64,000 nt of DNA from Tubiluchus corallicola (lineage: Eukaryota; Priapulida; Priapulimorpha; Priapulimorphida; Tubiluchidae). Below are positions 2,656-58,245 of the stretch, piece by piece; the first letter of the stretch is position 1, and every line of letters starts with the position of its first letter. Position numbers and translations under genes: made by a program. The stretch covers positions 29,212 to 93,211 of the forward strand of contig JAQGDQ010000810.1 in the NCBI GenBank assembly GCA_030141605.1. The letters run 5' to 3'. The notes under the pieces were generated by a model. The model saw nothing but the letters and a program-made list of their open reading frames with translations. It searched no databases and was not told where the DNA came from.

Positions 2656-5600
2656 GTATGTGAATAGTTCCTCCTCGAGAGAGTCAATGCTGGTTTTCTT
2701 GGCTTCCCTTTTTTTATTAATGGTCTCCCATTTCTAACTTTAAATGTTTTTTTATTATGGTTCGCTAATTCCATATGCAACTTTATTGTCACAAAAATGG
2801 AGAAGAATTTAGAAAAATGATCCGATCAATGATTGAGTGAGTGATTGGTACGGAAAGTATTCGAAAATCGATTATTGTAATCAATCGCCTCACATGAAAA
2901 CTTCAATAAGTCTTTAGAACTTCTGCCACCGTTAAAGGGGAAGTGTGTTCCAAAAAACTTTCCGCACAAAGTGATATTATTTAGCATTACGCTTACCTGT
3001 TTGAAAAACTTAGGTAAGTGGAAAAGAAAATTCTTAATAATTTAAAATAATCACGCCACCTGATAAAACATCGCTGTACCGCCATCCCAGTGTGCACCAC
3101 TGGCTTATCAAAAGAATACATTATTGCGCTTATTAAATATTAAGTCAAATTTTTATATTTTTGCTTAAGTCAACAAAGTGTGTGCTACAAATGGTCTGAT
3201 CATATTTACTTTATCCAATGTTATGTAAACTTGTTTTAAATGAATCGCTGTACCTAACGATCATCATGACAGTTTAAAATTACAAGTTTCATACAGCGTT
3301 ACTGCTAACGCAAGCCCTGTATGCAGTAAGAGAACTTGCAAGCGGTAGGATTTCCAAGACGAAATTTTTAAGTCTTATTTGCGAAGAGTGTTTTCTTTTG
3401 ATCTTTAATGAAAAGATCGACTTTTACAGCAATCATTCTATGAGAACAAAACAATAACTGAATATGTTCATATTCGGATTTCGTTTTATATTCCAGGATT
3501 CCGAAATTGAATCTTGGATTAAGTAGAAATTGAAACTTTATCCAGAAAAGAATTTTAGTGTTTTAGTGACCCGAGTGCCATTTGCTCTAAGTGGAATGAA
3601 TATATTTGTTTGTTTTTTATCACAACTACCGTAGAGTTTATCAGATAAACTAACAAATATTTATGTATTTTGCAGCTGGCGTCTGAACAACGAGGAGCTC
3701 GGCGCGAAAAAGCCAAGTACTTTGCTCAGAACTTTGAAAGCAAAGGACTTCCCGATGAAGACCTTCACGAGTTCTTGGCCTTGTGCATGGACAAAGACCC
3801 GTCGGTCATGCAAACTGTGGCCAAAGAGCTGAACGTTAATCTGGACGAAGACCAGGACATCCCGTCGCTAGACCTGCGCAGCGGTAACAAGCGCAGAAAT
3901 GTGAAAGACAATTTTGTGGACAACAAAATGGACATTGTGTCAGATACAGCTTACCAGTGCGTAGGTAAGACTGAGGCCAGGTTTAAACAGGAAGACAAGC
4001 CTGCATCTGAAAATCGTGATAAGTCTGACCGGTGGTCAGCGAAAAATGACTGCAATACCGGTAGCTTGCACTCCGAAAACGCCGAGCCATCTAAACCGGT
4101 GCTGAATGGCACTTTGTCGGGAACCTCCGATGACGATGACTCGACTGATTTAAAATGTGTAATCGTGGATTCATCAATGAAGCCAGACATATCTAATGAG
4201 CAACGTGTAGATAAGACGTGGAACTCTTCCCAGAAAAAACTGCTTCATGGACTCGCGCCAAAGAGTGCATTTTCTAGTAGTCTGAAAAATCCAGATCCAG
4301 AAAAACTTATAGACTGGAAAAAAGCGGAGTCCACTTCCGTGCGTCACAGATTTAAAGGCAGTTCGTCTGGCTGTGAAAATGTGAGACTAATATCGGCAAA
4401 GCCTTTACCTGAGGCAGACAGTATACCATCTAGTCAATTTAAGCGGCCGGTTAATTACCCGGTGTCTGACGAAGTGACCATGATAAAACTCAGAGGCGTA
4501 GACCTCGATACGCGTTACGCCTACAGACCGCTTAATTACGCTTCAGACAGTTCGGACGGTATTCCGTTCGCAGACGATACCTCAGGAGAAGATACGACGG
4601 AAACGGAAGCAAATAGGACTAGTCACGAGGAGACTGAATCCACGGAACAGTCTTCCCCGAGTGAAGCATTACTTTGTAAAGTTGGCAAACCTTCGTACGG
4701 GACCGTTCAAAAATCTAGCGGGCTATATCCGTCTATTTACCCGTCATTGGACGGCGTGCGCGCCGAGGAGAAGGCGCAGCAGTACGCTAGCTTGTTAGCC
4801 AATCGCGACACGACCGATGGCTGCGAAAGGGAAATAGAGATGAAGACGCTAGAACGCGGAGACGAAAGATCGCGTGACGTCGACGACGGCGTGGATTTCC
4901 CGCTGCAGACGGGCAGCAACCGCAGCAGCGTCGAACGAGTCGTGGTCATAGACCAAGCTCAGAATGTCGCGGCAATTACTCAACCAGCCAATGAGTTCAA
5001 GTCGAGAAATTCCATCCGGAGACAACAATCGGGATCGCCGGTAATTTATAACATTGGTCTTCTGCGTCTTTGATGACTAGTAACTAGTATCATGATTGTG
5101 TAACATCAATAGAATTGCTCAAGTTTATTGGCACCAGTTAATGTTCTTGCTAACCGACCCTTGTACTCTTTAATAGAGCGTTATGCCGCACCAGTGCTGC
5201 TTGACCTTTAATCTTGTTTGAGTTTGCAACTTAATGTTTGGGGTTATTAACTTGCCAAGTATCTCAGATGGCCTTCCTTTTAATGGAGAGTTACGAAAGT
5301 TTTCGTAATTTATTGTCGAAACTATGTCTTTGTTAGAAATAATCTTATTCGGAAGTAATCGTAGATAAATTGACAGCACTTGTAGCAATAGGTCGGAAAT
5401 GCCGTTGCGAAAAAGTTGTGATATGCCCTGCTTATTTATACAATTTAAACAGTTACTTGATCATGGCTTAGAGGAAAGGCCAAACTTTCTGGAAATTCAG
5501 TTTATTCAAATTCATTTTAAACTTATTTCAATCTTTGCAAAAAATGTTAGAAAGATTTAGTAGTAAAAGCATAAGCGCCTCGTGTAATTAGTAAAATATC

Positions 5601-22380: not shown

Positions 22381-23489
22381 ATTTATGAAATATAGGCAAC
22401 AAAATATTTACAAAATAAAATTTGTCAATTTTTTTGGAACATCGTAGTGTTTAACCGTAAACATTGTTTTACTTTCTTAGTCGGAATTTTTTGCTTGGCT
22501 ACTTCATCATTCATTTATTTCAGATTGTTTTTCGGTTTTTATAGTAGTTGGTTTTGCAAAAATGAATTCAGTGCAGTTTTATTTCGGCATCAGTCTCCTT
22601 TAATTCCAAAATTTTCGTTTCGGTTTGTAATTTCAGTTTCGGTAACGTCCCTGCTCACAACACACATAAACATAAGATTGTTTCTTGGCTTTTTATGATT
22701 GCTTAGTAAAAAAACAGCCATGTTCATAAAAAAATGTGAAACGCCCACTTATAACTGTTGTGATGCTTTGTTCCGGGTAAATGCAAAGTAAAATGTGTCT
22801 TACCTCAGCATTTAGAGGAAAATCTTCCCCTGCTCCTTGCTGTATTTTGCTATCAGAATAGTTAACCAAGAGTTATTAACCGATACTTTAATACGGCCTT
22901 GTGTGAACTTATCATGTGAATGAATTGATTAAGTTGTGATTGGATCCGATTGCATCCCTAGTCTTGTGATGTTCATTGTTCTTGGGGTATGGTAGAACTT
23001 GTAATCTAATCGGCTATGCATTAGGCAGTTGCTTACACGCAAGCGGGTAATGTGTAGTAATTGACAGATAGCTTTAAAGCAAGCTTTAAACGTGCAAGGT
23101 TTTTGCTATGCACTTTACATGATGTAAATTATTTTCAGGTACGCAAAAGAACCCGGGTTTAATTCCTAGTTGAAATCGGGTATTGTACGGTTGCTTTTGA
23201 ACCACTACGTTAAGTTTTTTGCTGTAGGATTGCGTGTTTCTGATCGTTTTTAATTCTGAGTTGTTGTTGGCACGTGAAAAGGATGAGGTGTTTTCAAGAA
23301 GACCACGTTGCAGCTTACAAGAAACATAAAATCTTCTTGTTTTTTTTAATTTCATTGTTCAGTTTGCTTGCACAGTCTCACTGGCTTTCCTTTTTTGCAA
23401 ATGTATCTTGTAATTTTGCTCACAAGTGTGAAGGATTTCAAAAAGTGTTCCATCAATTGTTTTCCACTGTAAGAACTGAATATAATTTA
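22381..23489. other. Intergenic sequence
   Basis: AT-rich, with no gene, array or element that I can support. A weak box-B-like string near 23155 lacks tRNA stems. Confidence 0.4.
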
Positions 23490-25005
23490 TCTGATTGTTG
23501 AGTTGCATCGTTTGTTGTCTCTGCTGTGCCGTAAACAATGTTTTTCCAACCCTTATCTGATTGTTGGGTTGCATTGTTTGTTGTCTCTGCTGTGCTGTAA
23601 ACAATGTTTTCCAACCCTCATCTGATTGTTGGGTTGCATTGTTTGTTGTCTCTGCTGTGCTGTAAACAATGTTTCTCCAACCCTCATCTGATTGTTGGGT
23701 TGCATTGTTTGTTGTCTCTGCTGTGCTGTAAACAATGTTTTCCAACCCTTACCTGATTGTTGAGTTGCATTGTTTGTTGTCTCTGCTGTGCTGTAAACAA
23801 TGTTATTCCAACCCTTACCTGATTGTTGGGTTGCATTGTTTGTTGTCTCTGCTGTGCTGTAAACAATGTTTTTCCAACCCTTACCTGATTGTTGGGTTGC
23901 ATTGTTTGTTGTCTCTGCTATGTCGTAAACAATGTTTTTCCACCCCTTATCTGATTGTTGGGTTGCATTGTTTGTTGTCTCTGCTGTGCTGTAAACAATG
24001 TTTTTCCAACCCCTACCTGATTGTTCGGTTGCATTGTTTGTTGTCTCTGCTGTGCTGTAAACAATGTTTTTCCACCCCTTACCTGATTGTTGGGTTGCAT
24101 TGTTTGTTGTCTCTGCTGTGCTGTAAACAATGTTTTCCAACCCTTACCTGATTGTTGAGTTGCATTGTTTGTTGTCTCTGCTGTGCTGTAAACAATGTTT
24201 TTCCAACCCTTATCTGATTGTTGGGTTGCATTGTTTGTTGTCTCTGCTGTGCTGTAAACAATGTTTTCCAACCCTTACCCGATTGTTGAGTTGCATTGTT
24301 TGTTGTCTCTGCTGTGCTGTAAACAATGTTTTTCCACCCCTTATCGGATTGTTGAGTTGCATTGTTTGTTGTCTCTGCTATGCCGTAAACAATGTTTTTC
24401 CACCCCTTATCTGATTGTTGGGTTGCATTGTTTGTTGTCTCTGCTATGCCGTAAACAATGTTTTTCCACCCCTTATCTGATTGTTGGGTTGCATTGTTTG
24501 TTGTCTCTGCTATGCTGTAAACAATTTTTTTCCACCCCTTATCGGATTGTTGGGTTGCATTGTTTGTTGTCTCTGCTATGCTGTAAACAATGTTTTTCCA
24601 CCCCTTATCGGATTGTTGGGTTGCATTGTTTGTTGTCTCTGCTATGCTGTAAACAATGTTTTTCCACCCCTTATCGGATTGTTGGGTTGCATTGTTTGTT
24701 GTCTCTGCTGTGCTGTAAACAATGTTTTCCAACCCTCATCTGATTGTTGGGTTGCATTGTTTGTTGTCTCTGCTGTGCTGTAAACAATGTTTTCCAACCC
24801 TCATCTGATTGTTGGGTTGCATTGTTTGTTGTCTCTGCTGTGCTGTAAACAATGTTTTTCCAACCCTTACCTGATTGTTCGGTTGCATTGTTTGTTGTCT
24901 CTGCTGTGCTGTAAACAATGTTTTTCCAACCCTTACCTGATTGTTGGCTTGCATTGTTAGTTGTCTCTGCTGTGCTGTAAACAATGTTATTCCAACCCTT
25001 TGCAT
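23490..25005. repeat. 66-bp minisatellite, about 23 copies
   Basis: The monomer includes GTAAACAATGTTTTTCCAAC, ATCTGATTGTTGGGTTGCAT and TGTTTGTTGTCTCTGCTGTG. Most units are 66 bp; units with one T fewer in the T-run are 65 bp. As 66 is 22 codons, the - strand reads an in-frame 22-residue repeat containing NIVYSTAETTNNATQQS for up to nine units, and the + strand a Cys/Leu-rich one. The one-base variants break both frames, so I treat this as a satellite, not a gene. Confidence 0.9.
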
Positions 25006-32439: not shown

Positions 32440-34815
32440 ATCAGAATATCTCTTCTGTCTTTCTTGTGTTTGACTTGCACACATCTATGTGGGCCTCGTG
32501 TTGGCATTATGTTGTAAAAGTTGAATAAACTGATTTGAAGAATCCAACATTCACGTTTTTGCTAATTGTCACTGTGGGCCTATAATGCTGACATTATGTT
32601 GTAAAAGTTGTATAAACTGATTTGAAGAATCCAACATTCACGTTTTTGCTAATTGTCACTGTGGGCCTATAATGCTGACATTATGTTGTAGAAGTTGTAT
32701 AAACTGATTTGAAGAATCCAACATCCACGCTTTTGCTAATTGTCACTGTGGGCCTATAATGCTGACATTATGTTGTAAAAGTTGAATAAACTGATTTGAA
32801 GAATCCAACATTCACGTTTTTGCTAATTGTCACTGTGGGCCTATAATGCTGACATTATGTTGTAGAAGTTGAATAAACTGATTTGAAGAATCCAACATCC
32901 ACGCTTTTGCTAATTGTCACTGTGGGCCTATAATGCTGACATTATGTTGTAAAAGTTGAATAAACTGATTTGAAGAATCCAACATCCACGCTTTTGCTAA
33001 TTGTCGCATGGGCTTATAATGCTGACATTATGTTGTAAAAGTTGAATAAACTGATTTGAAGAATCCAACATTCACGTTTTTGCTAATTGTCACTGTGGGC
33101 TAATGTTGGCATTGTTGTAGAAGTTGAATAAACTGATTTGAAGAATCCAACATTCACGCTTTTGTTAATTGTCACTGTGGGCCTATAATGCTGACATTAT
33201 GTTGTAAAAGTTGAATAAACTGATTTGAAGAATCCAACATCCACGCTTTTGCTAATTGTCACTGTGGGCCTATAATGTTGACATTATGTTGTAAAAGTTG
33301 AATAAACTGATTTGAAGAATCCAACATCCACGCTTTTGCTAATTGCCACTGTGGGCCTATAATGCTGACATTATGTTGTAAAAGTTGAATAAACTGATTT
33401 GAAGAATCGAACATTCACGTTTTTGCTAATTGTCACTGTGGGCCTATAATGCTGACATTATGTTGTAAAAGTTGAATAAACTGATTTGAAGAATCGAACA
33501 TTCACGTTTTTGCTAATTGTCACTGTGGGCCTATAATGCTGACATTATGTTGTAAAAGTTGAATAAACTGATTTGAAGAATCCAACATTCACGCTTTTGC
33601 TAATTGTCACTGTGGGCCTATAATGCTGACATTATGTTGTAAAAGTTGAATAAACTGATTTGAAGAATCCAACATTCACGTTTTTGCTAATTGTCACTGT
33701 GGGCCTATAATGCTGACATTATGTTGTAGAAGTTGAATAAACTGATTTGAAGAATCGAACATTCACGTTTTTGCTAATTGTCACTGTGGACCTATAATGC
33801 TGACATTATGTTGTAGAAGTTGAATAAACTGATTTGAAGAATCCAACATCCACGCTTTTGCTAATTGTCACTGTGGGCCTATAATGTTGACATTATGTTG
33901 TAAAAGTTGAATAAACTGATTTGAAGAATCCAACATCCGCGCTTTTGCTAATTGTCACTGTGGGCCTATAATGTTGACATTATGTTGTAGAAGTTGAATA
34001 AACTGATTTGAAGAATCCAACATCCACGCTTTTGCTAATTGTCGCATGGGCTTATAATGCTGACATTATGTTGTAAAAGTTGAATAAACTGATTTGAAGA
34101 ATCCAACATTCACGTTTTTGCTAATTGTCACTGTGGGCTAATGTTGGCATTGTTGTAGAAGTTGAATAAACTGATTTGAAGAATCCAACATTCACGCTTT
34201 TGTTAATTGTCACTGTGGGCCTATAATGCTGACATTATGTTGTAAAAGTTGAATAAACTGATTTGAAGAATCCAACATCCACGCTTTTGCTAATTGTCAC
34301 TGTGGGCCTATAATGTTGACATTATGTTGTAGAAGTTGAATAAACTGATTTGAAGAATCCAACATCCACGCTTTTGCTAATTGTCGCATGGGCTTATAAT
34401 GCTGACATTATGTTGTAGAAGTTGAATAAACTGATTTGAAGAATCCAACATCCACGCTTTTGCTAATTGTCACTGTGGGCCTATAATGCTGACATTATGT
34501 TGTAAAAGTTGAATAAACTGATTTGAAGAATCCAACATTCACGTTTTTGCTAATTGTCACTGTGGGCCTATAATGCTGACATTATGTTGTAGAAGTTGAA
34601 TAAACTGATTTAAGGAATCCAACATCCACGCTTTTGCTAATTGTCACATGGGCCTATAATGTTGACATTATGTTATAGAAGTTGAATAACCTGATTTTGA
34701 AGAATCCAACATCCACGCTTTTGCTAATTGTTGCATGGGCCTATAATGTTGACATGTTGTAGAAGTTGAATAAACTGATTTAAAGAATCCAACATTCACG
34801 CTTTTGCTAATCGTC
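32440..34815. repeat. 87-bp satellite-like array, about 27 copies
   Basis: The monomer contains TGTGGGCCTATAATGCTGAC, ATTATGTTGTAAAAGTTGAA, ACTGATTTGAAGAATCCAAC and CACGCTTTTGCTAATTGTC; period 87 bp. Variants such as GTCGCATGGGCTTATAATG followed by a short GGGCTAATGTTGGCATTG unit occur near 33004 and again near 34043, showing a block duplication of about 1.04 kb. Not coding. Confidence 0.95.
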
Positions 34816-35120
34816 ACTGGGAGCTGTGGCTTCACTATATCTGTAGCCGAGGGGCCTACGAAATCAAATCCGGTCCTTTATGCATCATTATTGTTATCAC
34901 GGACATAAGGCCAACCGTCGAACGCATTAATCTTAACAATTATAATGAAGCTGGATATTTTCCGAATTGTTGAATCCACTGCGCACGCGCAAGGAGCACT
35001 GATTTGCAGGGAGATTAGATCTTTTATAATAAAAATGACATTGAGACGTGACATTTTCTTGTTTTCGTTCATGTTGCGCTTTGATGAAACCAATAAAATG
35101 AGTCACGTGATATGTAACTA

Positions 35121-35222: not shown

Positions 35223-35265
35223 ATGATTTATGACAACTGTTCAGATTTGAGTAACATAATTATCG
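35223..35265 (+). CDS. GPCR coding exon 1 (start exon)
   Basis: ATG followed by IYDNCSDLSNIII, donor ATCG/GTAAGT. It ends in phase 1 and completes Gly with exon 2. Chosen because it supplies an ATG, a strong donor, the required phase and an N-glycosylation site, and brings the total to a whole number of codons. An upstream alternative start cannot be excluded. Confidence 0.65.
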
Positions 35266-38200
35266 GTAAGTGACATACTGTAAGTTAACTAGCATTTAGC
35301 ATAGCATCACAAAGTTATGAAACATCATACACCTTGTTCTGAGATTGATATTACCGTAAACCTCGCTTAACGGCACCCCGTTTAGCGACGTTGAACGTTT
35401 GACACCTTTTTTCACTTAACGACACACGTTTCATTTTAACGATGATTTTTTTACTTTGCTGAAAACCAGTTTTCATTAGTCAACAACTTTTTTTGCTTAA
35501 TTTGAAGCATTAAAATAGCATTACTGGGTTATTCCGTTTTTTTTTTGTTTTGTTTTTGCTTCCGGACTGACTACCATACTAGCTCCGGTTTCTGTCAAAC
35601 GAGACCTGTGAACAAAGTTTGCGCCAAGATATTCTACGTGTAACCTGTTCCTATAGTAACTAGACTACATAGTAGATAATACAGTACTCTGGTACGATAA
35701 AAAGGCTGTAAGTGGAGCAGGGGCGTAGCCAGGTTCTAAATTTAGGGGAGCAAGCACATAAAAAAGACGTATGCCATATAATTTTCAACACGTTCATTAT
35801 ACGTTTTAATTTTGTTTTTAAAATTGAAATTAGCAGGAAGTTACAGTCTTAAAGAAAGTGCATAATTACTATTTTGTATTTAAAAAATAAAATGATTCAA
35901 ATTTTATTGCACAAGTGAACTAAATAGTTTAAATAATTCTCGCTCCCCATGCTTTCCTAGCTACGCCACAGAGCAAGATTTTTTACTGGCTTCGTGGAAA
36001 AAGTTATCATTGACAAAAGTTACGAATCACAGGCATGATTACCTTTGCAAATGCAGTTCATAAAAACTTTTGCTTTTGCCGCCACAATAAGTTCCTAAAT
36101 GACCCCATTTTCAGCCAAGATCATTATGAAATTATTGTTAGTTCAGCAAAGACTTAAAGGACAAGAAAAGGGGCACCTGAAGTAGGTTTTAGAAAAATCA
36201 CCTTAAAAAATTCTATTACTTTATAGCAATTTTATGCGTATATCGAACTCGCACTGAAAGGAATTTTAGTTTGTTTTCATTTTAAATCTCCCGCAATACT
36301 GTTCCGAAGTCGCCATTACATGACGTCATGTACCAAACGTAAATCAAGGGAAGAAAAAGCAATGTTAAATAATGTCTCAAAAGACTTTCCGTGCAAATCT
36401 ATATTACTTAAATTTTCGCTTACCTACTAGAAAGACTTGCGTAACTAGAAAAGAAAATTATTAATTATTTAAAATGTTTTCACCAATTGGTAAAATGTCG
36501 TTGACTCACCCTCCAGGGTGCACCACTTACTAACCAAAAACGTGTTTTAAATCTTATTGACAAGATGCAGTAATTTTAAATTTTATTTAGTTAGTGACTT
36601 GTGCCCTACGAATGCTCTGATTATTTTTTCAAACTTTACAAAATGTTATCTAAACTTGTTTCAAATGACTTAGAGTTAAAATGGCTGCGTCTATCCGTCA
36701 TCGTGGGAGTTTAAATTTACATGTTTTATACAGCGTGACTGCCGATTGAAGTCCTGTACGCAAAAAGCCAGCATGTAACGGCACGGACACATGCTCCTTC
36801 TAATGTGAGTTATTTTATTCATGCCACTTCATATATTTCACAGGTCAATCCAATACGTCCACATCTCTACGTGACGGCAACAACTTTCTGGGAATTGGAC
36901 TTAAGTTGACAGCGGTTACATTCATCGCCCTGGTGGCATTTTTTGGCAATGTCTTGCTTGTCACCAGCATCTGGAAGCTGAAGCAGCTGAGGACACCATC
37001 CAACACTCTTCTCTTCTCTTTTGCATTTGCAGATATTTTGGTTGCAGTCATCGATCTACCATTCACTATTATTGCCATTGTTCATGGGTAAGTAGTCATC
37101 GATCTACCGTTCACTATTATTGCCATTGTTCATGGGTAAGTAGTCATCGATCTACCGTTCACTATTATTGCCATTGTTCATGGGTAAGTAGTCATCGATC
37201 TACCGTTCACTATTATTGCCATTGTTCATGGGTAAGTAGTCATCAATCTACCGTTCACTATTATTGCCATTGTTCATGGGTAAGTAGTCATCGATCTACC
37301 GTTCACTATTATTGCCACTGTTCATGTGTAAGCAGTCATTTATCTACCGTTCACTATTATTGCCATTGTTCATGGGTAAGTAGTCATCGATCTACCGTTC
37401 ACTATTATTGCCATTGTTCATGGGTAAGTAGTCATCGATCTACCGTTCACTATTATTGCCATTGTTCATGGGTAAGTAGTCATTCATCTACCGTTCACTA
37501 TTATTGCCACTGTTCATGTGTAAGTAGTCATCGATCTACCGTTCACTATTATTGCCATTGTTCATGGGTAAGTAGTCGTTGAGCCACCGTTCACTATTAT
37601 TGCCATTGTTCATGTGTAAGTAGTCGTCGATCTACCGTTCACTATTATTGCCACTGTTCATGTGTAAGTAGTCGTTGATCTACCGTTCACTATTATTGCC
37701 ACTGTTCATGTGTAAGTAGTCATCGATCTACCGTTCACTATTATTGCCATTGTTCATGGGTAAGTAGTCGTTGAGCCACCGTTCACTATTATTGCCATTG
37801 TTCATGTGTAAGTAGTCGTCGATCTACCGTTCACTATTATTGCCACTGTTCATGTGTAAGTAGTCGTTGATCTACCGTTCACTATTATTGCCACTGTTCA
37901 TGTGTAAGTAGTCATCGATCTACCGTTCACTATTATTGCCATTGTTCATGGGTAAGTAGTCGTTGAGCCACCGTTCACTATTATTGCCATTGTTCATGTG
38001 TAAGTAGTCGTCGATCTACCGTTCACTATTATTGCCACTGTTCATGTGTAAGTAGTCGTTGATCTACCGTTCACTATTATTGCCACTGTTCATGTGTAAG
38101 TAGTCATCGATCTACCGTTCACTATTATTGCCATTGTTCATGGGTAAGTAGTCGTTGAGCCACCGTTCACTATTATTGCCATTGTTCATGTGTAAGTAGT

Positions 38201-38953
38201 CGTCGATCTACCGTTCACTATTATTGCCACTGTTCATGTGTAAGTAGTCGTTGATCTACCGTTCACTATTATTGCCACTGTTCATGTGTAAGTAGTCATC
38301 GATCTACCGTTCACTATTATTGCCATTGTTCATGGGTAAGTAGTCGTTGAGCCACCGTTCACTATTATTGCCATTGTTCATGTGTAAGTAGTCATCGATC
38401 TACCGTTCACTATTATTGCCACTGTTCATGTGTAAGTAGTCATCGATCTACCGTTCACTATTATTGCCACTGTTCATGGGTAAGTAGTCATTGATCTACC
38501 GTTCACTATTTTTGCCACTGTTCATGGGTAAGTAGTCATTGATCTACCGTTCACTATTTTTGCCATTGTTCATGGGAAAGTAGTCATCGATCTACCGTTC
38601 ACTATTATTGCCATTGTTCATGGGAAAGTAGTCATCGATCTACCGTTCACTATTATTGCCATTGTTTATGGGTATGTGGGCAATCATAGTATCTTAGTTT
38701 CCATTCTGATTGAAATATATGCGGGAAATGTTGAATTCATTTATCCTGAAATTAGACACGTTTTAAGTAACGTATTCTTATCAGGTGTGTAATATAGATC
38801 ATTTTATTGTGCCATTACCGTTAAAATTCTGCTGAAATACCGGCGAAAATCCAACAGACTCTTTAATTTTGTTTTTCACTCTTTCCCTCTCTATTTTTCG
38901 TTAACTCACTCACTCTCTCATCCTCCCTCTCTCTCATTTCTCTCTCTCTCTCC

Positions 38954-38995
<42 letters not shown>

Positions 38996-41288
38996 CTCCC
39001 TCTCTCTCATTTCTCTCTCTTTCTCTCTCGTCTCTCTCTCTCATTCTCTCTCTCTCCCTTTCACTGTTTCTTCTCTCTCTCTCTCTCTCATTCTCTCCTC
39101 CCTTTCACTCTTTCTTCTGTCTCTCTCATTCTCTCCTCCGTTTTATTCTCTTCTCTCTCTTTCTCTCGCTCATTCTCTCCTCCCCCCTCTCTCTCTCTCT
39201 CTCATTCTCTCCTCCCTCTCTCTCTCACCTTCTTACCGACCACGTATGTGAGAACATAATAATTTTCAGCATATTATAATTTTAGATCATGGATATTTTC
39301 TGACGTTGCCTGCACTGTTATTGGTTTTACCAACGAATTCTTCATGATTGCCAGTTCGATGTCTTTGTGCAACATTACGATCAATCGTTACATGATGGTT
39401 TGCAAACCCATACAGGCCAAGACATTCTACACATACAAAAACTCATTTATTACTTGTGCAGGTATAACGAATGTAAGAAAGTTTGGTGCAAGTGCAACTG
39501 ATACGAGGAAAATTTGGCTTCTTGTTGAAATCTGGTACAGTCATACCTCGGTTTTCGACCATAATTCGTTCCTAAATGTGTTTGAAAACCGATTTGGTTG
39601 AGTACTGAATCATTAATTCCCATAAGAAATAATGTAAAAGCAAATAATCCGTTCTCAAGCACCCAATGAACTGTAAAGTATTACTAAAATGAAATATAAT
39701 AATGCAAAAATGTTTATCTAAACAGTAGATATGATATAATTGATAAGAAAAACATAATAGAATTCTTAGAAAGCAAAACAATTATTCCTGCATGAAAAAA
39801 CCTTACGTGTTGGTAGCAGTGTGATGGTATACGTAAGCAAGAGTGTGTGACTACTCTCGGGCGCGGTCGGTTACGCTCGGCTCTACTCTGCTCGCCGCGC
39901 ATGCGTTCATCAGGTGCTTGGCGGTTGGTCGAGTACCGAAATTCTGGTCGAGAACTGAGACAATTTCAACTCGATTTTTCTGGTCGAAAAACTGATTTGT
40001 ACGAGTACCGAGACGTTCGAAAACCGAGGTATGACTGTACTAAGAATTTTTAGTATACAGTAATTCTGGTACAGGTAAATTTGGTACTGTGCTCTTTGGG
40101 TGTAAGAAATTTTTGGTACTAAAAAAATCTAGTGTGAAGAATGTTGGTAGAAGGATAATTATCGTAAAAGGAAATCATCACTGTTATCATCATCATCACC
40201 ATCGTCACCACTGTTTTCATCATCAACATTATTGGCATCACTATGGCTCTGCTGTCACTATTACTGTCATCGAAATCCATCTTTATCTATTGGCATATAA
40301 TAGTAGTAGTGACGATGATGACGATGATGATTATGATGTTTGCACACAACAATATGACTACCAACACCACTGTTAAGACCTTTAGTACCAACACCATTAA
40401 CAACAGCAACAACAGCAATGACGACGACAACAACAAAAACAATACCAGCAGCAACAACAACAACAAACAACAACAACAGTAACAGCAACGACGACGACAG
40501 CTACAAATAAATGCGCAGTTCGCGTGTAAAAAGTAGAACTGTGAAGTACAGCAATTCCGGCTAAATGTTCAAATTTCTATGCATATGTTTTTTTTTCAGT
40601 TTCCTGGTTGTTAGCTTTAATTCAATCTGTTGCACCCCTTTTCTTTAACGGTTACGACTACCTTCCTGTTCAGAGCATTTGTTTCATTGTACCATGGAAA
40701 AATCCCGTCTACATGGGCAGTCTCTGTGCCATTGTTTTTCTGGGGTGCGTTGGTATCATGTCTTACTGTTACTGGAACATTCTTACAGAAGTACGCAACA
40801 GCAGGATGCGAACTGTCACAATACCAGCTAACAAAACAGCACCAAAAGCTGATACTACACAAAAAGTGATGACACAATTTCAATCAAGGACATCCACGCA
40901 TGCGTCTGAGTTTGCTGCGCCATCACGTTGTCAAAATGCTGCAGAAACCGAAGAAATGGCCGACAAGACATTGCTTCGAACTGTTCACATCTCCACCGTT
41001 GATTCACAGTCCACTAAGAAACAACACAAGTCGTTTGACAACCGTAAAAAAGACGAGCTGCGATTGGCCATTTCCTTCCTCATCGTGTTCGTAGTCTTCA
41101 TTGTCTGCTGGGCTCCCTACACGATAGCCAGTATCGTATGGGCATTTACCGATATTCAAATTCCAACTCAGTGTGAGGAGGTCGCCATATTGTTAGGGTA
41201 CTCAAACAGCTGTTGGAATCCGGTCATATATGGCGTCCTAAACAGGAACTTCCGGAAAGGATACAAACGTCTGCTGTGCGGAAAATAG
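35223..41288 (+). CDS. Class A (rhodopsin-like) GPCR, melatonin-receptor-like
   Basis: Exons 35223-35265, 36844-37087, 39286-39461 and 40600-41288 join in phase to 383 residues plus stop, the usual length of the family. The extracellular N-terminus has glycosylation sites NCS (5-7) and NTS (18-20). TM1 has GN (49-50) and TM2 FAFAD (74-78). C105 in TM3 and C182 in loop 2 form the conserved disulfide. NRY (129-131) replaces DRY, as in melatonin receptors. TM6 has CWAP (324-327) and TM7 NPVIY (361-365), followed by a basic helix 8 (NRNFRKGYKRLLCGK). Residue 3.32 is Asn, not the Asp of amine receptors. Loop 3 is long, about 90 residues. The HGSW motif, NRY, KNS after TM3 and the YG-L-N-NFRK-Y tail recall melatonin receptors. 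Ligand unknown; probably a plasma-membrane G-protein-coupled receptor. Confidence 0.88.
35718..35975. repeat. Degenerate hAT-like MITE
   Basis: CAGGGGCGTAGCCAGG at the left and CCTAGCTACGCCACAG at the right are imperfect inverted repeats; the inner parts also mirror (GGGGAGCAAG against CTCGCTCCCC). No clear target duplication. It lies in GPCR intron 1. Confidence 0.55.
36158..36780. repeat. TTAA-type MITE family A, copy 5
   Basis: The left end TTAA then AGGACAAGAAAAGGGGCACC is clear. The body is the reverse complement of 7837-8519 with high identity. The right end has decayed about 60 bp before GPCR exon 2, so the MITE occupies the 3' end of intron 1. Confidence 0.75.
36844..37087 (+). CDS. 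GPCR coding exon 2 (N-terminus, TM1, TM2)
   Basis: Acceptor ATATATTTCACAG; donor CATGG/GTAAGT at 37088. It enters in phase 1 and leaves in phase 2. It encodes QSNTSTSLRDGNNFLGIGLK, TM1 with FFGNVLLV and TM2 with FAFADILVAVIDLPF. The last 40 nt plus the donor are the founder monomer of the 48-bp array that follows immediately. Confidence 0.85.
37040..38690 (+). repeat. 48-bp array of the exon 2/intron 2 boundary (34 copies, each with a 5' splice site)
   Basis: The unit GTCATCGATCTACCGTTCAC, TATTATTGCCATTGTTCATG, GGTAAGTA is the 3' end of exon 2 (residues VIDLPFTIIAIVHG) plus the donor. TTCATG(G/T)GTAAG recurs every 48 bp from 37081 to 38665, where the last donor reads GGTATG. Each copy keeps the exon reading frame but has an in-frame TAA in the donor. 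A 192-bp (4 x 48) higher-order unit marked by GTCGTTGAGCCACC repeats from 37577 to 38345. Confidence 0.97.
38870..39235. repeat. (TC)n-rich polypyrimidine tract
   Basis: About 360 bp of CT repeats broken by CATCCTCCC and CATTCTC motifs, ending 50 bp before GPCR exon 3. It could act as an extended polypyrimidine tract, though the exon has its own acceptor. Confidence 0.9.
39286..39461 (+). CDS. GPCR coding exon 3 (loop 1, TM3, loop 2)
   Basis: Acceptor TATAATTTTAG; donor GCAG/GTATAA. It enters in phase 2 and leaves in phase 1. It encodes GSWIFSDVACTVIGFTNEFF, TM3 to NITINRYMMVCKP, and KTFYTYKNSFITC. The conserved Trp in loop 1 and Cys 3.25 are present. Confidence 0.88.
39538..40037. mobile_element. 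Mariner-like MITE (500 bp, TA flanks) in GPCR intron 3
   Basis: CAGTCATACCTCGGTTTTCG at the left and CGAAAACCGAGGTATGACTG at the right are perfect inverted repeats, flanked by TA at 39536-39537 and 40038-40039. Subterminal TGGTCGAG motifs also mirror. No transposase is encoded. Its intactness suggests recent insertion. Confidence 0.92.
40058..40500. repeat. TTTGGTACT-type repeat followed by trinucleotide microsatellites
   Basis: GGTAAATTTGGTACT and AAATTTTTGGTACT motifs precede CAT/CAC-rich, GAT-rich and CAA-rich trinucleotide tracts up to 40500. The same order of parts occurs at 46620-47715. It lies in GPCR intron 3. Confidence 0.7.
40600..41288 (+). CDS. GPCR coding exon 4 (TM4 to C-terminus)
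   Basis: Acceptor TTTTTTTTCAG, entered in phase 1 to complete Val 155. It encodes TM4 (SWLLALIQSVAPLFF), loop 2 with Cys 182, TM5 (NPVYMGSLCAIVFLGCVGIM), a Ser/Thr/Lys-rich loop 3, TM6 (LIVFVVFIVCWAPYTIASIV), TM7 and the tail. The TAG stop is at 41286-41288. There is no long C-terminal tail. Confidence 0.92.
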
Positions 41289-44505: not shown

Positions 44506-44961
44506 TTAAGACTCCGACGGGTAGAAGCCACCATAACCCCGGTTGTAGCTATTATAATCCGGTGTCAGGACAGAACCGTAACCACCATAACCATAGCCGC
44601 CGGACGGGCCACTACTCAGGCCAGAACCGTAACCACCATAACCGTAGCCGCCGGACAGGCCACTACCAAAGCCAGAACCATAACCGTAGCCGCCGGACGG
44701 GCCACTACCAAAGCCAGAACCGTAACCACCATAACGAGAGCCATAACCACCATATCCCGAGCCGAGACCATAGCCACTGTAACCACCATAACCGCCATAT
44801 CCCGAGCCTGTTCCGTAGCCGTAACTGTAACCGCGACTGTAACCATGTCCCCTGCCTTGTCCGTACCCGCCATAACCAGCACCATAGCCCGGAGTTCCGT
44901 AGCTGTAACTCTGGAAATAGCCGTTAGGAGCGCGCGGGGGCATGGCATACACTACAGTTAC
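44506..44961 (-). CDS. Gly/Tyr-rich protein, coding exon 2
   Basis: On the - strand, acceptor CTATATTTCAG precedes GTAACTGTAGTGTATGCC (VTVVYA). Phase 0. It encodes the end of the signal peptide and the whole mature repeat region; TAA stop at 44508-44506. Confidence 0.92.
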   Translation of the reverse strand, partial: VTVVYAMPPRAPNGYFQSYSYGTPGYGAGYGGYGQGRGHGYSRGYSYGYGTGSGYGGYGGYSGYGLGSGYGGYGSRYGGYGSGFGSGPSGGYGYGSGFGSGLSGGYGYGGYGSGLSSGPSGGYGYGGYGSVLTPDYNSYNRGYGGFYPSES

Positions 44962-45429
44962 CTGAAATATAGAATAAAGTACTAAGTTATATAACAGAGG
45001 CAGTTTGAGCATTGAGCATGTCCCAAAAACTAGCAGACCACACAAAGTTATATTACTTAACAGAAAACTTAGCAGACCACACAAAGTTATATTGCTGTAC
45101 AGCATGTCCCAAAAACTTAGCAGACCACACAAAGTTGTTTACTGCAATTTTACAGAATGTCCCAAAAAACTTTAAGCAGAGGCAGTTTAGTATCTGTAAA
45201 AGTGATGACTCCAGAAAATTCTTCCAAGGCGATGGTATTATCGCATAAGTGAACTAAAGAATTTAAAAAAATGTTAAAAAGTTGAGCTTTAATGAAACCA
45301 TTTTCTTTTTTTAAGCTTTAATCATCAGTACAGTAACGAAAAAGAATATTCTCGATAAGTACCACATTAGTAACTTACTATTGCCAACAGGACAGAGATT
45401 ACGACGACTAGTCCGCCTGCAGTTTTCAT
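44506..45429 (-). CDS. Secreted Gly/Tyr-rich structural-type protein
   Basis: Coding exons 45429-45379 and 44961-44506 join in phase 0 to 168 residues. Residues 1-23 (MKTAGGLVVVISVLLAIVTV then VYA) form a textbook signal peptide, cut after VYA. The mature part starts MPPRAPNGYFQS and is mainly GYG, GGYG, GSGF and GPSGGYGYG repeats ending GGFYPSES. It has no Cys and few charges apart from some Arg. Such sequences occur in cuticle, tube, shell-matrix and silk-like proteins and in some Gly/Tyr-rich antimicrobial peptides. I infer an extracellular structural role; the exact family is unknown. A leader exon and TATA box lie upstream. The coding repeat is about 27-30 bp based, so length may vary between alleles. 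Confidence 0.9.
45015..45170. repeat. Three-copy short tandem repeat in the intron of the Gly/Tyr-rich gene
   Basis: AGCAGACCACACAAAGTT recurs at about 45031, 45070 and 45119, partly with CATGTCCCAAAAACT in front. It is non-coding. Confidence 0.8.
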
Positions 45430-54931: not shown

Positions 54932-55426
54932 AACCACGGCCAAATCACGTTGAAAACACCGGTTCTCGTTTGATCACCGAAGTTAAGCAACGTAGAGCCT
55001 GGCTAGTGCTTGGATGGGTGACCGCCTAGGAATACTGTAGGCTTGCGGAATGCTCACACTGTATCTCGACACTAGGCGGAGGAGCTGTACAAGCAGCCAA
55101 CGGCTAGAGGGCGGAGGAGGTCAAGTGACCCAAGGGCCATGTGTAGAAGAGTAAACCTTCCAAATCAGGAGTGGAGCCCCGAAGGCGGACCAGTGCAGCA
55201 TGCTCACTGACTCCGGCAGCTCCTGCAGCCAATCTGGTGCCAAACATATCGCTCCGCTTTTCTTTGGACTACACCAGGGAGGAAGAGAGGGGGTTCCTGT
55301 TGTCTGGGCAACTCAGGATCTGCATACACCTTGCCGAGGCGTGCGCCCTGGAGAGGTTCAAGGATCGGACTCTCTTGGCGCACATTCCATTGTCTTCCGA
55401 GACAGAAGGATGCCAACAACAACAAG
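54932..55426 (+). repeat. 5S rRNA-derived SINE (SINE3-like), copy 1
   Basis: 54932-55048 is clearly 5S rRNA: CACGTTGAAAACACCGGTTC, GATCACCGAAGTTAAGCAAC, GTGCTTGGATGGGTGACCGC, CTAGGAATACTGTAGGC. The internal control region (A box, intermediate element, C box) is nearly intact. It continues without break into a GC-rich body (GGCGGAGGAGCTGTACAAGC, GGAGTGGAGCCCCGAAGGCG) and ends GATGCCAACAACAACAAG. The body is shared with copy 2. It is a pol III retroposon, not a 5S gene. Confidence 0.92.
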
Positions 55427-57669: not shown

Positions 57670-58073
57670 TGTGACGCACGCCTGGGCAAGGGTGTGTGGA
57701 GATCCTGAGTTGCCCAGACAACAGGAACCCCCTCTCTTCCTCCCTGGTGTAGTCCAAAGGAAAGCGGAGCGATACGTTTGGCACCAGGTTGGCTGCAGGA
57801 GCTGCTGGAGTCAGTGAGCATGCTGGACTGGTCCGCCTTCGGGGCTCCACTCCTAATTTGGAAGGTTTACTCCTCTACACATGGCCGTTGGGTCACTTGA
57901 CCTCCTCCTCCACCCTCTAGCCGTTGTGCAGCTCCTCCGCCTAAAGACACAGTGTGGGCATCCCGCCTACAGCGCCTGGTATTCCTAGGCGGTCGAACAT
58001 CCAAGTACTAACCAGGCTCTACGTTGCTTCACTTCAGACGAGAACCGCTGTTTTCAACGTGATTTGGCCGTAG
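57670..58073 (-). repeat. 5S rRNA-derived SINE, copy 2 (truncated at 3' side)
   Basis: On the - strand the 5S head (58073-57965) reads CTACGGCCAAATCACGTTGA, AAAGCTAAGC-equivalent GTGAAGCAACGTAGAGCC, TAGTACTTGGATG, CGCCTAGGAATACCAGGCGC. The GGTGACC part of the C box is altered to TTCGACC. The body matches copy 1 to about 57672, where unrelated sequence begins. Opposite orientation to copy 1. Confidence 0.9.
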
Positions 58074-58245
58074 TCTGTGTTTCTTATAAGCACTGTTTTA
58101 GTGCTACGCATACGGCGGTGTATAGGGTGCAATATATAATGTATATAGGCTACTCGTGTTATACAACCGTAACTTGAGATACAAACCGTCCAACAAACGA
58201 AAAGAAAGCTTAGCGTTCTATTCGAGAATTTAATTTTCAAATTAA

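Follow-up and report, generated by a model that had tools for sequence, protein, structure and literature searches.

Tandem repeats built from an exon end and its splice signal reportedly received the name "mirages" from Canestro et al. in 2002. In amphioxus, the accessible parts of two reports (PMC3087553, PMC3902484) describe mirages in Adh3, in the globin genes BflGb6 and BflGb9 and in the troponin C gene, with similar repeats in PGBD5, and the RT-PCR results given there suggest that mirages leave regular splicing undisturbed. The unit lengths stated in the available text of one of them (PMC3087553) are 10–72 bp for Adh3 and 150–160 bp for the globins. In the literature on this theme, represented mostly by titles and abstracts, we met no report of boundary-spanning minisatellites outside amphioxus. 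Related literature, likewise available in part, concerns amphioxus huntingtin (PMC2206037) and the intron repeats of earthworm metallothionein (PMC12783039).

We analysed a 64,000-nucleotide stretch of Tubiluchus corallicola DNA, called the window throughout, in which a G protein-coupled receptor (GPCR) gene carries an array of 48-bp units at the end of its second exon. The anatomy of this array looks like that of the amphioxus mirages, an assignment made by sequence anatomy in one assembly, and boundary-spanning minisatellites have a published precedent there. As far as the accessible text on mirages goes, both types of array have a tandem unit composed of an exon end and a splice signal (here 42 nt of exon 2 plus gtaagt), both have the authentic boundary at the array edge, and both keep the signal in many, but not all, copies (here GTAAG in 31 of 34, 15 of them with GG before it). 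In both, the inner copies are homogenised and the edge copies are not (here copies 12–27 as against copy 1 and copies 29–34). The 48-bp unit also falls within the range of mirage lengths cited above. In contrast, the GPCR array has 34 copies and lies on the donor side, whereas the BflGb6 haplotypes, as described in that text, have 6 and 3 copies on the acceptor side. As an example of this anatomy, the GPCR array is both long and clean.

Other systems are similar in part. The dual-specific array of polyubiquitin UBC, in the available portion of its description (PMC10809524), also carries splice signals once per tandem unit; there, AGGT acts as both donor and acceptor at the borders of coding repeats, whereas the GPCR array offers donors only, is intronic and contains stops. 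An AG/GT of the UBC type occurs in none of the 34 units of the GPCR array, where the site reads GG/G or GT/G (a slash marks the splice junction here and below). The model of intron gain by internal tandem duplication, as outlined in the accessible part of PMC3087553, likewise involves the local duplication of a splice boundary, but the GPCR array has multiplied donors only, with no new intron or exon evident. The MIR137 VNTR, in the available text of PMC6692358, is a further tandem repeat for which an effect on splicing has been proposed.

Host gene and array structure

Open-frame and splice-site reading revealed a complete host gene of 4 exons encoding 383 aa, in which every intron is of the GT-AG type and the phases match. 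The features of the gene and the array are as follows.

35223..35265, + strand: exon 1, coding (open frame, phase and donor TATCG/gtaagtgac)
36844..37087, + strand: exon 2, 244 nt, encoding the N-terminal part as far as TM2 (acceptor ttcacag/GT, open frame and 7tm_1 match)
37046–38677, + strand: minisatellite of 34 head-to-tail 48-bp units, starting within exon 2 and extending into intron 2
37088..37093, + strand: authentic 5' splice site gtaagt, the first in the row (assessed by translating from donors 1, 2, 6, 32 and 34)
38534..38677, + strand: copies 32–34, donors GAAAGT, GAAAGT and GTATGT, without in-frame TAA
38678..39285, + strand: remainder of intron 2, including a CT-rich stretch; acceptor taattttag
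39286..39461, + strand: exon 3 (SWIFSDVACTV...SFITCA)
40600..41288, + strand: exon 4 and stop codon

The host protein contains a full Pfam 7tm_1 domain (E=2.5e-51, profile positions 1–260 of 260), and with this complete domain the gene qualifies as a class A (rhodopsin-like) GPCR; melatonin receptors are its best PDB matches. Comparison of exons 3–4 with the closest paralogue, located on contig C48, gave a dN/dS of 0.32 (dS 0.29, 281 codons), and on this sequence comparison the gene itself looks to be under constraint in these exons. A second reading frame is open over 36905–37582, beginning in exon 2 and extending through array copies 1–11.

The exonic part of copy 1 is the final 42 nt of exon 2, and the 48-bp unit joins this exon end to gtaagt. 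Our analysis confirmed, at 37046–38677, the array of 34 such units that had been proposed in a sequence-only reading of this DNA, and the 192-bp higher-order unit proposed in the same reading proved to be real. The 34 copies comprise 15 distinct unit types, and copies 12–15, 16–19, 20–23 and 24–27 form four exactly identical 192-bp blocks. Identical copies were found in 15 of 30 pairs at a lag of 4 and in 11 of 26 pairs at a lag of 8; lags of 1, 2, 3, 5, 6, 7 and 9 gave 1 to 3 identical pairs each. Copy 1 and copies 29–34 are unlike the repeated blocks of copies 12–27, and copy 1 has CCA where the other 33 copies have CCG, a single silent difference.

Four identical 192-bp blocks are the type of stretch that assemblers misjudge, and the contig of the closest paralogue (C48) begins inside intron 2; both would suit the view that the copy number or order of the array was inflated during assembly. 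We consider this extremely unlikely, since the 15 unit types occur in an ordered arrangement, the end copies are divergent, the window contains 0 N bases, the flanks are unique, and many further arrays that differ in sequence lie within the same window. Moreover, such an artefact would alter the copy number and not the presence of boundary copies. When a 301-base query from the array locus was compared with the assembly, all 10 hits among the matches listed belonged to this array.

Donor sites and their predicted use

The 34 donors, described as near-identical in the sequence-only reading, are not all alike: 15 are GG/GTAAGT, 15 are GT/GTAAGT, one is GT/GTAAGC, two are GG/GAAAGT, and the one in the last copy is GG/GTATGT. 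That is, the G at position -1 is changed to T in 16 copies and GT is absent in two, and GTAAG is kept at the donor position in 31 of the 34. The in-frame TAA that had been attributed to every donor is present in 31 copies, copy 1 included, and is missing from copies 32–34. Among the five donors that we translated (1, 2, 6, 32 and 34), donor 1 alone gave the receptor, and donors 2, 6, 32 and 34 each led to a stop after aa 96. Because copy 1 carries TAA, the remaining later donors would also lead to a stop after aa 96, and thus the earlier claim that the first donor alone yields the receptor stands.

Pairing energies were predicted with the 5'-end sequence of U1. The values were -11.9 kcal/mol for GG/GTAAGT and -7.0 kcal/mol for GT/GTAAGT, and the host gene's own donors of exon 1 and exon 3 gave -10.1 and -7.2 kcal/mol, respectively. 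Fourteen later copies match the -11.9 kcal/mol predicted for the first donor, and the GT/GTAAGT class does not appear negligible, since its predicted pairing is similar to that of the exon 3 donor. Local folding predictions hardly ever left a donor 9-mer unpaired over its whole length, with values of 0.0001 for donor 1 and 0.048 for the last donor, the most open one. Accessibility was rejected as the reason for first-donor use, as predicted folding does not favour donor 1. First-donor use would therefore not be explained by strength or by accessibility, neither of which sets donor 1 apart in these predictions; it would agree with recognition of the 244-nt exon 2 by exon definition and with donor 1 being transcribed before the others.

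Variable columns account for 13 of the 48 in the unit, with 4 of 9 in the donor and 9 of 39 elsewhere (Fisher p 0.23), and in columns 1–43 the first, second and third codon positions are variable in 4 of 14, 3 of 14 and 3 of 15 columns, respectively; few independent changes lie behind these statistics. Since the variable columns are evenly spread, donor columns included, no coding or donor constraint on the copies is visible. The GG/GTAAGT donors crowd toward the exon end, where they occupy 9 of the first 11 copies compared with 6 of the other 23 (p 0.0035, calculated on array copies that are not independent of one another). This clustering could indicate maintenance, or it may be the product of local block homogenisation.

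These data bear on the suggestion, also made in the sequence-only reading, that the array may be a length-dependent splicing rheostat. Under this hypothesis, later donors would act as decoys that vie with the first for U1, so that a share of the pre-mRNA would end as a product that is truncated or degraded by NMD, to a greater extent in longer arrays. We consider this unlikely. The constraint on copies or donors that was sought in the array was not seen there: the -1 G is gone from 16 copies and GT from two, the donor columns are no less variable than the rest, and the variable columns are even over the codon positions. Furthermore, similar arrays occur in unrelated genes of the same genome (see below), suggesting a by-product, and amphioxus mirages reportedly leave splicing undisturbed in the available text (PMC3087553, PMC3902484). 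The rheostat would nevertheless be consistent with the equal predicted U1 pairing of 15 GG/GTAAGT copies, the true donor among them, 9 of which lie within the first 11; with the T(-1) donors, which are predicted to pair with U1 approximately as the exon 3 donor does; with the truncation after aa 96 that later donors would cause; and with an effect of VNTR length on splicing published for MIR137 (accessible part of PMC6692358).

We regard it as probable that the array is a neutral minisatellite of the mirage type, with the first donor used and the array leaving with the intron. This is the other of the two explanations offered in the sequence-only reading, and it fits our results better than the rheostat, which they do not support. 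Most likely, the array is no switch but was produced incidentally in a genome prone to repeats, and we infer that the copies bring no benefit. A tandem duplication that copied the 42-nt exon end together with gtaagt would have started the array, presumably as the first step, and unequal exchange or slippage would have made it grow into intron 2 and homogenised its middle into 192-bp blocks. The pre-mRNA is expected to include the array through transcription. The exon-proximal donor, made first, would then pair with the near upstream acceptor across the 244-nt exon, and splicing from this donor would remove the whole array with intron 2. The later donors would be decoys, the use of which would produce a transcript with a stop after TM2.

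Based on the generally known functions of U1, the array may also be supposed to aid splicing: a row of intronic U1 sites would raise the local occupancy of U1 and thereby firm the definition of exon 2 or block premature polyadenylation in intron 2. The presence of GTAAG at the donor position in 31 of the 34 copies is consistent with such an aid, but the donor columns are not conserved and local folding is predicted to leave hardly any donor 9-mer entirely open; the predicted fold of six copies was mildly stabler than shuffles (z -1.9). We therefore judge a role of this kind to be distinctly improbable.

With fifteen donors of equal predicted strength behind one exon, the locus tests the choice of 5' splice site in an extreme form provided by nature. 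If the first donor alone is used, exon definition or transcription order beats sequence strength; if later donors are used, the amount of receptor made would be set by a heritable variable, the length of the repeat.

Paralogues of the receptor gene

A search of the assembly with the host protein gave 125 matches. The paralogue on contig C55, the exon 2 of which is 52% identical, has its own array of 28-bp units approximately 70 nt inside the same intron, downstream of the donor. Alignment of this unit with the donor context of that gene gave a local score of 20. In 1000 shuffles the highest score was 16, and none of 2250 control 70-mers reached 20. Since the units differ in length (28 and 48 bp) and in sequence, the C55 and host arrays look independent. 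Two arrays on C55 with similar 27-bp units containing GTGAGT flank the exon of the paralogue (1–329 and 3110–3701 of the fetched stretch).

The alignment of the C48 paralogue's intron with the window begins near the 3' end of the array and continues downstream of it. BLASTN detected no match to the array in the intron sequence of this contig, which starts inside intron 2, and exon 2 of this paralogue was absent among the protein-search matches. The start of the C48 contig, within intron 2 (1–340 of the fetched stretch), resembles by eye some of the sequence in intron 3 of this paralogue, and a dispersed repeat may be present there.

Donor arrays elsewhere in the genome

Donor words were counted throughout the assembly (343.5 Mb, 2344 contigs; whole counts on both strands), in which a family search for COX1 gave no match. 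Three AGGTAAGT words spaced 19–49 nt were found 1407 times genome-wide, compared with 103, 159 and 70 for triples of the control words TGAATGGA, ATGAAGGT and TGGAAGTA, respectively, so that AGGTAAGT triples exceed these three words of the same composition 9- to 20-fold; all triple counts, here and below, are per copy and not per array. As single words, AGGTAAGT occurred 18,866 times and TGAATGGA, the one control counted in this way, 13,452 times. Thus, the excess of AGGTAAGT in arrays is greater than its excess in single copies. Triples of GGTAAGT numbered 2213 versus 765 for TGAATGG, and those of AGGTGAGT numbered 510 versus 154 for TGAGTGGA.

By eye, 44 of 100 listed AGGTAAGT places belong to one dispersed 42-bp family and 34 to the array on C5. 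No boundary was seen at the one locus of the 42-bp family examined (C17). Among the matches listed, AGGTAAGT loci number 13 in C1–C92, six of them of the 42-bp family, and ATGAAGGT loci number 11 in C1–C845, three of them in C1–C92. Contigs C17, C38 and C92 share a dispersed family of 42-bp tandem units that contain TTAGGTAAGT; on C17 and C38, it occurs on both strands. An array detected with a control word at C845 50309–50556 has a 30-bp unit that contains AGGTAAGT as well.

Nine loci with donor-word arrays were fetched, and in three of them (C32, C5 and C24) the array lies at the end of a coding exon. On C32, this exon encodes the cysteine-rich domain of Smoothened (PDB E 1.3e-30, Pfam Fz 1e-13) and is followed by at least three 42-bp copies. 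On C5, an open, coding-looking exon ending in EDERVLHMYR/gtaagt carries a long 33-bp array; its resemblance to a phosducin-like protein reached only E 5.7, and we leave the product without a name. On C24, the exon is a signal-peptide-like first exon, and the unit has the donor and its intron side in common with this boundary, together with only 4 exonic nt. The array on C88 starts approximately 20 nt into the intron behind an open exon of 279 nt and is thus near the boundary, not across it. Among the same nine loci, no exon boundary was seen at the arrays on C30, C17 and C2, and C61 and C92 were ambiguous.

It is possible, although in our view doubtful, that minisatellites of this genome arise preferentially at 5' splice sites. 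Donors would then seed arrays far more frequently than other words of equal composition, and donor-bearing arrays would recur across many genes, paralogues with an array in the corresponding intron included. The donor-word excess across the genome is unmentioned in the accessible parts of the literature that we found, and we consider it the part most worth pursuing. Arrays that recur at a Smoothened exon and in a paralogue intron, together with over-represented donor words, make the cause of boundary amplification and its possible link to intron gain testable in one species. If arrays are indeed seeded preferentially at donors, nature has set up in this genome a trial, on a large scale, of how one donor is selected by the spliceosome out of dozens.

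Minisatellites in and around the window

Minisatellites were defined by a period of at least 20, at least 3 copies and a TRF score of at least 200. In the window, 15 such arrays occupy 21.0% of the sequence; in a sample of 12 stretches totalling 99,211 bases, three of them from the window's own contig, 19 arrays occupy 10.3%. Given these shares, a boundary array by itself is unsurprising. Of the 33 arrays outside both GPCR loci, none has GTRAGT in its shortest-period consensus unit, and the donor motif was therefore rejected as a common part of ordinary minisatellites. GGTGAGA occurs in one of these 33 arrays, and AGGTAAG is present in the longer-period consensus of the array at 23487–25000. 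Among all 38 arrays, GTRAGT was found in 4, against a mean of 1.75 for permuted hexamer pairs; a value of 4 was reached in 9.8% of draws, which is not significant in this small sample.

Upstream of the receptor gene, the window contains an array of 27 units of 87 bp (32505–34819). Its consensus unit includes AATAAA, and the array thus forms a row of poly(A)-signal-like motifs. A Gly/Tyr-rich open frame on the minus strand (44506–45138) overlaps a minisatellite with 51/42-bp units and has no Pfam match. Two opposed repeat copies at 54932–55345 (+) and 57675–58075 (-), 86% identical over a 424-column alignment, share a 5S rRNA-like head, and this repeat looks like a 5S-headed SINE.
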